IMG/VR virus record: IMGVR_UViG_3300044844_000303
Coordinates: 1 to 33,812 of that record
Reading direction: 5' to 3' (one strand)
Length of the DNA stretch: 33,812 bases
Origin: a virus
Numbering within the stretch: the first letter of the stretch is position 1; each line of letters starts with the position of its first letter. Position numbers and translations under genes: made by a program. The notes below the pieces were generated by a model. That model was not told where the DNA came from. It ran no database searches and saw nothing but the letters and a program-made list of their open reading frames with translations. Below, one piece after another: positions 15,943 through 17,554 of this stretch.

Positions 15943-16168
15943 AATGCTTCAAAAATAGGTCAACGGTTGGTTCAATGTTCATGTCTGAATCGGTGATGAA
16001 CCGGGCGAATTCTGCCAACATTCGATGTTCGGCGGCCAACAATTGAGTTTTGTTTTCTGCCATCCATTTGGCAAATTCCGGATGGAATTGGAATCGTTCA
16101 TAAATTATTTTTACCGGACGGCGTTCCATCATTTCGTTGATGTCACCAAAATGGTCATGTTGGTTCAT
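15929..16168 (-). CDS. Hypothetical helical protein after the methyltransferase
   Basis: Unrecognised. The ATG at 16168 gives 79 residues; the longer frame begins at a TTG. The product is helical and rich in His, Met, Glu and Phe (HPEFAKWMAENKTQLLAAEH). It overlaps the methyltransferase stop by 14 bases and the next gene by 14 bases, so it is co-translated. There is no sign of a restriction endonuclease. Confidence 0.6.
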   Translation of the reverse strand: MNQHDHFGDINEMMERRPVKIIYERFQFHPEFAKWMAENKTQLLAAEHRMLAEFARFITDSDMNIEPTVDLFLKHYENN

Positions 16169-17084
16169 TTGTTTGGTCAAATTTTTCAATTGCTTTGAAT
16201 ATTTCGAAAACTACATTGGGGACGACGGCGTTTCCGTAGGCTCGAATTGATTCGTTTCGCCATTTTGAAAAGGTAATTCCGTCCAATTCGTTGGAAAACC
16301 CATTATTTCGGCCACAAATTGTGGGTTTAGATGTTGGGAATGCTGACCAGTTTGAACGAATATTTCCATATTCAAATCTTGTTGTCGATTGTCTTGAATT
16401 CTCTTTTCCCATGCTTCTTTGCTCATTCCGCTCGTTTTCCAAGTCGATGCATTGGGAGTCGGAAGCATTCCGTAAAAATTCACGGCATCCAATATCGAAT
16501 TCGGTCGATTCTCCCCGTTGGCTCGACTCATCATGCTTTTCGCTCCGGTTTTTTTCAATGCTTCGACTCGTTCCGGGTGCTCTCTTTGTACGGCCGTTGG
16601 CGTAGGCAATAAACCAAATTCGTTCCCGTTTGTGAGGTGCATTTGTCGCGCATGCAGGTATAAGATAGGGCGCGACTGAATACCCAAGATTTTCCAGGTC
16701 AACACACACTTCGTCGAATACCATTCCCCGGTTCCAATTAGTAAGTCCGCGAACGTTTTCTCCCACAACGTAGCGCGGGGCAATTTCTGCAATCGCTCGC
16801 AACATGTGAGGCCACAAATGGCGTTCATCCGCTTTTCCAAGCCGTTTCCCGGCGGCTGAATAGGGTTGACAAGGGAATCCGCCCGAAATAATGTCAATTG
16901 CTCCATGATATTTTGTGAAATCAGTTTTTGTTATATCTTCAAATGATTCGGCGTTCGGCCAATAATGCTTCAAAACGCGTTGGCCAAACGGATTCCATTC
17001 GCAATGAAAAACGTTTTCCCAATCCATCCATTCGGCGGCTAAATCAAAACCGCCAATTCCTGAAAACAACGAACCATGTTTCAT
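16155..17084 (-). CDS. DNA cytosine-5 methyltransferase (orphan)
   Basis: Transfers a methyl group from S-adenosylmethionine to cytosine C5, most likely to protect phage DNA from host restriction. It has 309 residues. Motif I is SLFSGIGGFDLA (5-16). Motif IV is GFPCQPYSAAG (69-79) with catalytic Cys72. Motif VI is GENVRGL (108-114). Motif VIII lies around HKRERIWFIA (151-160), and motif X is AYGNAVVPNV (282-291). The segment 164-245, where the target-recognition domain should lie, is Arg/Ser/Glu/Asn-rich and looks poorly structured. The same DNA is open in the +1 frame (16211-16906). No restriction endonuclease partner is nearby. The start overlaps the upstream stop as ATGA. Base texture differs from neighbouring genes, suggesting recent transfer. 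Confidence 0.95.
   Translation of the reverse strand: MKHGSLFSGIGGFDLAAEWMDWENVFHCEWNPFGQRVLKHYWPNAESFEDITKTDFTKYHGAIDIISGGFPCQPYSAAGKRLGKADERHLWPHMLRAIAEIAPRYVVGENVRGLTNWNRGMVFDEVCVDLENLGYSVAPYLIPACATNAPHKRERIWFIAYANGRTKRAPGTSRSIEKNRSEKHDESSQRGESTEFDIGCREFLRNASDSQCIDLENERNEQRSMGKENSRQSTTRFEYGNIRSNWSAFPTSKPTICGRNNGFSNELDGITFSKWRNESIRAYGNAVVPNVVFEIFKAIEKFDQTNEPT
16211..16906 (-). CDS. Overlapping +1-frame ORF inside the methyltransferase gene
   Basis: An ATG-started frame of 231 codons lies completely within the methyltransferase gene, shifted +1. Its product begins MEQLTLFRADSLVNP and contains YSTKCVLTWK, two copies of an LPTP motif (LLPTPTA, MLPTPNA) and LNPQFVAEIMGFPTNWTEL near the end. 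Proteins with these same motifs, in this order, occur as annotated phage and bacterial proteins, often labelled methyltransferase-associated, so this frame is not ordinary shadow sequence. In the middle part it looks more protein-like than the methyltransferase frame. It may be a separately translated protein, a part reached by frameshifting, or a by-product of strong methyltransferase conservation at both ends. Confidence 0.55.
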   Translation of the reverse strand: MEQLTLFRADSLVNPIQPPGNGLEKRMNAICGLTCCERLQKLPRATLWEKTFADLLIGTGEWYSTKCVLTWKILGIQSRPILYLHARQMHLTNGNEFGLLPTPTAVQREHPERVEALKKTGAKSMMSRANGENRPNSILDAVNFYGMLPTPNASTWKTSGMSKEAWEKRIQDNRQQDLNMEIFVQTGQHSQHLNPQFVAEIMGFPTNWTELPFQNGETNQFEPTETPSSPM

Positions 17085-17554
17085 TCGTCGCCCTCCATTT
17101 GATATTTCATCCGGTCGGTTTTTCCATAAATAACCAATTCGTCAAAATCGGTTTGGTCAATCCATGCCCGGAATGGTTCATGGCGGTCAAAATTGGCGTT
17201 CATCCGCTTCAAATCACTTTCGGATTTGAGAATTGCGGTGAATGCCTCCAATTCTGCCCAATGATGTTGACGGGTTCCGTCCATCAATTCCATTTTGACA
17301 ACTTCATGGTCCATTTTGTGAACCATGACCAAAATTTCCGATGTGTTGGTGACTGAAATGATTCGGGTTTGATATCCGGTTTCGATTGTGGCCAAAAATT
17401 CATCCAACTCCGATTCCGTCAAATTCATCATGATGGAAACGAAACGGGGTTGTTGGTTGGCATTGATTAAACGGTTGGTGAATTGTTCGGCGACTTTGAA
17501 CGATGGCAAATGTTGTTCGATTTCGATTCGCCAAAATTGTTTTTTCTGATTCAT
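17081..17554 (-). CDS. Hypothetical protein between SSB and methyltransferase
   Basis: Unrecognised. With the ATG at 17554, preceded by a CACAACAACAACATG leader, it has 157 residues. The product is acidic, mixed alpha/beta (NQKKQFWRIEIEQHLPSFKV at its start) with no cysteine or membrane segment. The open frame extends 26 codons further upstream to just past the SSB stop, but that region carries the leader and a possible promoter box. Its place between SSB and the methyltransferase suggests a DNA-metabolism role without direct evidence. Confidence 0.6.
   Translation of the reverse strand: MNQKKQFWRIEIEQHLPSFKVAEQFTNRLINANQQPRFVSIMMNLTESELDEFLATIETGYQTRIISVTNTSEILVMVHKMDHEVVKMELMDGTRQHHWAELEAFTAILKSESDLKRMNANFDRHEPFRAWIDQTDFDELVIYGKTDRMKYQMEGDE

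Follow-up and report, generated by a model that had tools for sequence, protein, structure and literature searches.

In one-chain cytosine-5 (C5) DNA methyltransferases, motifs VIII and X are usually separated by a target-recognition domain and motif IX on the same chain, an arrangement that is absent from the known two-chain enzymes. In one of these, M.EcoHK31I (YGGCCR), the β gene lies inside the α gene in another reading frame, and activity depends on both. Motifs I-VIII and X of this two-polypeptide enzyme are on one chain and motif IX is on the other, with the recognition domain predicted to reside on the large subunit (PMC3404938). In M.AquI (CYCGRG), the catalytic motifs are carried by one chain and the distal recognition region and motif IX by the other; it is the small chain that has motif X. 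The two M.AquI genes are not known to be nested. The multispecific C5 methyltransferases of the Bacillus phages SPR, phi3T and H2 contain tandem target-recognition units, as summarized in an article that cites Wilke 1988 (PMC8936443). In restriction-modification genes of Helicobacter pylori, recognition units are replaced between otherwise near-identical genes (PMC3983042).

Here, we describe a viral locus that is very probably a single C5 methyltransferase of the M.EcoHK31I sort, overprinted and split so that an α subunit would provide catalysis and a nested β subunit would provide target recognition and motif IX. The locus is contained in a 33,812-base record of an uncultured virus (the window, to whose whole length all coordinates refer). 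Phage tail, terminase, RecT and SSB genes are encoded on its minus strand, as are all features given for the window below. The frame-0 gene, which we call α, spans 16155..17084 and encodes a C5 methyltransferase of 309 aa. A GGAGGG, identified from the sequence as a Shine-Dalgarno-like site, is located 6 nt upstream of its ATG (17091..17096), and the start codon overlaps the stop codon of the upstream ORF (ATGA). The ORF in the +1 frame, which we call β, is 231 aa long and lies entirely inside α at 16211..16906, with its ATG at 16904-16906 and its stop codon at 16211-16213. It begins from its own ATG (MEQLTLFRAD...) and contains two LPTP repeats and LNPQFVAEIMGFPTNWTEL. In lengths, separate start and repeats, the two ORFs are as the original prediction had described them. 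No restriction endonuclease was suggested among the neighbour ORFs checked in the window.

The α product matches PF00145 (7.7e-47) and scores above the cutoff of TIGR00675. Motifs I, IV (PCQ), VI (ENV), VIII and X are present in order, as judged from the PF00145 match, an alignment of α proteins (A2) and an alignment with M.HhaI. The columns of motif I (SLFSGIGGF, 17046..17072) are mostly invariant in A2, and motif IV, which contains the catalytic cysteine (GGFPCQPYS, 16857..16883), is invariant, as is the ENV of motif VI (GENV, 16752..16763). The motif VIII region (NAPHKRERIWFIA) was placed by the same alignment at 16605..16643, and the conserved C-terminal block at 16218..16349; this block includes motif X, with GNAVVP at 16218-16235. 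The alignment with M.HhaI extends to residue 164 and is then weak, below significance, at motif X. In neither A2 nor the M.HhaI alignment was a conserved recognition domain seen in the interval from motif VIII to motif X. The position expected for this domain (16350..16598) is occupied by unalignable filler that is free of stop codons and neutral in frame 0, so that the α chain has no target-recognition domain with motif IX at this place.

In β, an N-terminal segment that overlaps motifs IV-VIII of α is followed by the LPTP cassettes and then by LNPxFVxEMMGFPxxWTELPF. No family for β was found in Pfam or NCBIfam. The protein matches PHROG_1008 (‘DNA methyltransferase’, 8e-14), as do all 26 of the 26 β proteins in alignment A1. 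The most constrained +1 segment over motifs VI-VIII of α is EWYSTKCVLTWK (16691..16726; dSN 0.14-0.19), in which W71 is invariant. Cassette 1 (LLPTPTAVQREHPERVEALKKTGAKSMMSRANGENRPNSILDAVNFYG, 16469..16612) is a member of a 12-cassette family and is followed by cassette 2 (MLPTPNASTWKTSGMSKEAWEKRIQDNRQQDLNMEIFVQTGQHSQ, 16334..16468), delimited by cassette parsing, and by a motif IX-like block with invariant M202, G203 and P205 (HLNPQFVAEIMGFPTNWTELPF, 16268..16333). This block, LNPxFVxEMMGFPxxW, resembles classical motif IX in position and pattern, with a non-significant score, and aligns with the second parts of the mycobacteriophage and Gordonia phage McKinley methyltransferases (hhalign probability 96.8%, E 2e-10). 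AlphaFold2 modelled β alone poorly (mean pLDDT 61, pTM 0.29), with no stable predicted fold, from an input of 129 sequences from which five rows from annotated phage records had been left out. Foldseek gave no usable fold match to this model and a β profile found no match among PDB sequences. Because of the poor model and the absence of matches, a recognition-domain fold for β is only putative.

The window sequence by itself is only suggestive that the +1 frame is not open by chance. Seven of 5000 synonymous permutations of its frame 0 reached the observed open +1 run of 239 codons, and the mean run after permutation was 118 codons. Viral homologues were obtained from scans with β and with α that yielded hundreds of relatives. 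Across 159 distinct homologous genes, the tested stretch of the +1 frame contained 3 stops as compared to 919 (permuted) or 959 (resampled) expected, and the +2 control frame of the 159 genes was chance-like, with 2380 stops against 2506 expected. Chance-level +1 stops in homologues had been set beforehand as the result that would speak against a +1 gene, and they were not observed. Since the α-based scan used frame-0 motifs, the loci found with it were unselected for the +1 frame; this frame was open across the overlap in 78 of 78 full-length loci. In bacteria, 79 of the 80 loci found with the β profile have β in the +1 phase of α, and a plasmid search with β gave three records. The homologues confirm the +1 ORF as a genuine, conserved gene rather than a by-product.

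Several relatives depart from this pattern. The sole bacterial locus outside the +1 phase is from Mucilaginibacter sp. FT3.2 (L286, 1836-3006), where α is apparently broken across frames. Two relatives (L063 and L064) are alone in the set in having a stop deep within the +1 frame. It lies at codon 152 of the methyltransferase gene and could mean that β has been divided or lost in these two, or could reflect an assembly error. Streptococcus phage P0092 has a 140-aa +1 ORF (P0092_45; L210, 1952-2371) annotated ‘DNA methyltransferase’ within a C5 methyltransferase gene. Unlike the β genes, this ORF is probably spurious, and motif IX is already included in the frame-0 enzyme of P0092 (RKLTPRECWRLQGFPDW).

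We determined which frame is selected along the gene using overlap-aware omega and codon-position divergence in 28 disjoint gene pairs. Before the overlap, where only frame 0 is coding (codons 4-50), divergence at frame-0 positions 1, 2 and 3 was 0.07, 0.03 and 0.29, and omega was 0.065 for frame 0 and 0.93 for +1. Over motifs IV-VIII, omega was 0.16 for frame 0 and 0.50 for +1, with third-position divergence down to 0.18. In the middle, the divergences were 0.34, 0.19 and 0.16, peaking at frame-0 position 1, which is position 3 of the +1 frame, and omega was 0.97 (0.87-1.10) for frame 0 and 0.26 (0.20-0.34) for +1. The 17 pairs with homologous middles gave divergences of 0.24, 0.08 and 0.05 and omega values of 1.20 (0.96-1.51) for frame 0 and 0.12 (0.09-0.17) for +1. 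Since only the +1 frame is constrained here, the middle of frame 0 is neutral filler. Both frames are constrained at the motif IX-like end (omega 0.37 for frame 0 and 0.22 for +1) and in the C-terminal block of α as far as the +1 stop (region 3b). Thus, both frames of this overprinted gene are under selection and they trade roles along it. This overlap-aware comparison of homologues had been proposed with the original prediction, and its results bear out the description given there of two ends conserved in both frames around a middle that is protein-like in +1 and filler in frame 0. The description does not extend to the first ~25 residues of β (MEQLTLF...), which show little constraint of their own.

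Constraint on the +1 frame is clear from ~15 codons past motif IV and strong over WYSTKCVLTWK, with a low dSN (0.14-0.19) at codons +45 to +74 from motif IV. No Shine-Dalgarno-like site was found before the β ATG, and for this reason, together with the weak constraint on the first ~25 residues, the assigned ATG is a putative start. Upstream of motif IV, 158 of the 159 genes keep a +1 ATG, as compared to 110 expected. Frame 0 contained no stops in the middle of the 156 genes tested, where 726 would be expected if β alone were kept. A middle that is neutral and free of stops indicates that α must be translated through the filler to motif X. The stop-free frame 0, the upstream constraint on +1 and the retained ATG together favour a pair of separately made products over a frameshift hybrid.

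Relatives of β occur in nested, separate and fused forms. PHROG_1008 matches the nested +1 products of phages N15, phiEc3, KO-TP1 (Klebsiella) and Bloom (Paenibacillus), and in Bloom both ORFs (gp56/gp57) are annotated as cytosine methyltransferases. It also matches separate second ‘DNA methylase’ genes in mycobacteriophages Idergollasper and Kingmustik0402 and in Gordonia phage McKinley, as well as residues 177-361 of an intact fused mycobacteriophage enzyme, the first part of which matches the α family. In some mycobacteriophages, motifs I-VIII, the LPTP cassettes, EWMMGWPxGWVT and GNGVCPQQ are all in a single frame, and in other related mycobacteriophages the enzyme is divided in two, with the start of the second part lying in +1 relative to the first. 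A model of the fused enzyme aligned with M.HhaI over 213 residues (Z 22.4, rmsd 3.3). This AlphaFold2 model has a good catalytic core and a poor recognition region (pLDDT <50 at 194-309), so the fused enzyme places the cassettes by order only. Of the options raised by the original prediction, a separately made partner subunit is the best supported, as in mycobacteriophages the relatives of β form the C-terminal half of a fused enzyme or stand as genes of their own. Given the natural fusion and the recognition domain missing from α, β is best read as a recognition subunit.

Close relatives among the mycobacteriophage loci (L293-L322) have the methyltransferase fused, split with a +1 overlap, or truncated, and the number of LPTP cassettes varies. 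These loci provide a natural series for the study of gene fusion and fission. A more distant proteobacterial branch (phage N15 gene 58, at 1585-2580 of L204, with L205 and L206) has the same nested +1 product, which in this branch contains LTWK, WPTP repeats and QLNPxHSRWLMGLPxEW. The presence of the nested product in proteobacterial phages as well indicates that the arrangement occurs across several host phyla.

The cassettes, each starting with LPTP, number 1-5 per gene (two in the window) and have a median length of 40 aa. We parsed 353 cassettes, which include 23 families with at least three members; the largest has 75 members in 65 genes and occurs at all positions from first to fourth. 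Cassette 1 of the window is 92% identical to that of a relative (L001) with an α that is 73% identical, and no clustered relative of cassette 2 was found in the set. Among pairs with α at least 90% identical, just 11% share the same ordered array. The genes of L097 and L113, with arrays of 391 and 262 bases, share 99% identity on the 5' side of the array and 95% on the 3' side, as compared to 43% within it. In 28 of the 52 pairs with at least 93% identity on the 5' side, the middles are less than 60% identical. Cassettes are swapped wholesale between genes with flanks that are 97-99% identical. Such replacement is the behaviour of recognition domains.

Likened by description to M.EcoHK31I, α of the window corresponds to the large chain with motifs I-VIII and X, and the gene for the small chain is nested in another frame, where in the window family it is under selection. 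Unlike in M.EcoHK31I, we assign the recognition part to the small chain because frame 0 is neutral between motifs VIII and X, and the window family has 1-5 exchangeable cassettes. The proposed separation of the catalytic motifs from the distal recognition region and motif IX would be as in M.AquI, which the split mycobacteriophage forms resemble. In contrast to M.AquI, β is entirely nested in α, and GNAVVP is in frame 0 of α with β stopping within that block. The SPR, phi3T and H2 enzymes are single chains encoded in one frame, whereas the putative units in the window are in a separate nested gene. As candidate counterparts of these tandem units, the 1-5 cassettes of β (median 40 aa) are swapped between genes and may each recognize a target of their own. 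The H. pylori case involves Type I and Type III adenine systems, whereas here the exchange affects a C5 enzyme and takes place within a dual-frame stretch.

In the mechanism that we propose, frame 0 would yield an α protein in which motifs I-VIII, for cofactor binding and catalysis, are joined by a neutral linker to motif X. From its own start codon, the +1 frame would be expressed as β, comprised of the segment overlapping motifs IV-VIII, the tandem exchangeable cassettes and the motif IX-like block. The two proteins would then assemble, with β standing in for the missing small domain and picking the sequence to be methylated. Swapped cassettes would alter the methylation pattern of the phage, which would probably benefit by evading host restriction.

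Other explanations accept β as a real overprinted protein or do without it. Overprinted phage genes often acquire unrelated functions, and β has no matched fold; it could thus be a regulator or an anti-restriction factor beside an α that acts alone. This is unlikely given that both a conserved recognition domain and a motif IX are absent from α itself, that the cassettes are replaced in the manner of recognition domains, and that the fused or adjacent forms of mycobacteriophages join the same parts in the order of the enzyme. The order of parts and the single-frame fusions would also fit programmed ribosomal frameshifting from α into +1 to make a one-chain hybrid with catalytic and recognition parts. 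However, frame 0 past a shift site would then be dispensable, and instead it runs uninterrupted through the filler as far as motif X (0 versus 726 stops). Furthermore, the hybrid would lack motif X and would read motifs VI-VIII in frame 0, where +1 is already constrained, and the +1 ATG is kept. We therefore consider such a hybrid very improbable. The same evidence (0 versus 726 stops in 156 genes, +1 constraint over motifs VI-VIII and the ATG in 158 of 159 genes) disfavours the frameshifted alternative recognition domain put forward in the original prediction.

A long +1 frame might also be a passive by-product of codon usage in frame 0. A conserved frame 0 gives some free +1 similarity over motifs IV-VIII, and permuted frame-0 genes already yield long +1 runs, as the mean of 118 codons for the window illustrates. 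Yet with 3 stops versus ~919, and with a middle where frame 0 is neutral and +1 alone is constrained, this explanation is hardly credible. We rejected it on the stop counts and the frame-specific divergence, which are also the evidence in favour of overprinting. An overprinted, split C5 methyltransferase is the explanation that we prefer.

Two-chain enzymes of this kind are already known from M.EcoHK31I; what is new is that the nested frame holds an exchangeable cassette array, that the other frame is read through as neutral sequence and that the arrangement is so widespread in phages. No description of the overlap was found in a literature search that was thin in subscription journals and is weak evidence of novelty. 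The locus is a clear case of overprinting, as seen by overlap-aware selection tests, in which the constrained frame switches along one gene. PHROG_1008 has only an automatic name, and its identification as a nested or separate recognition subunit is a proposal of this analysis that would explain a large phage family. Its members are usually dropped in annotation, named hypothetical or given as a second methyltransferase. We think it reasonably likely that the specificity module of this widespread phage methyltransferase is a readily swapped tandem cassette array in an overlapping gene, with the other frame serving as a neutral read-through linker. Each swap would keep both frames open and swaps would outpace substitution in the catalytic part, leading to fast-changing methylation specificity. 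Should specificity reside in the cassettes, it could become possible to predict the cytosine-methylation patterns of phages from sequence, and for M.EcoHK31I-like enzymes the assignment of the recognition part may have to be revised in favour of the small subunit.
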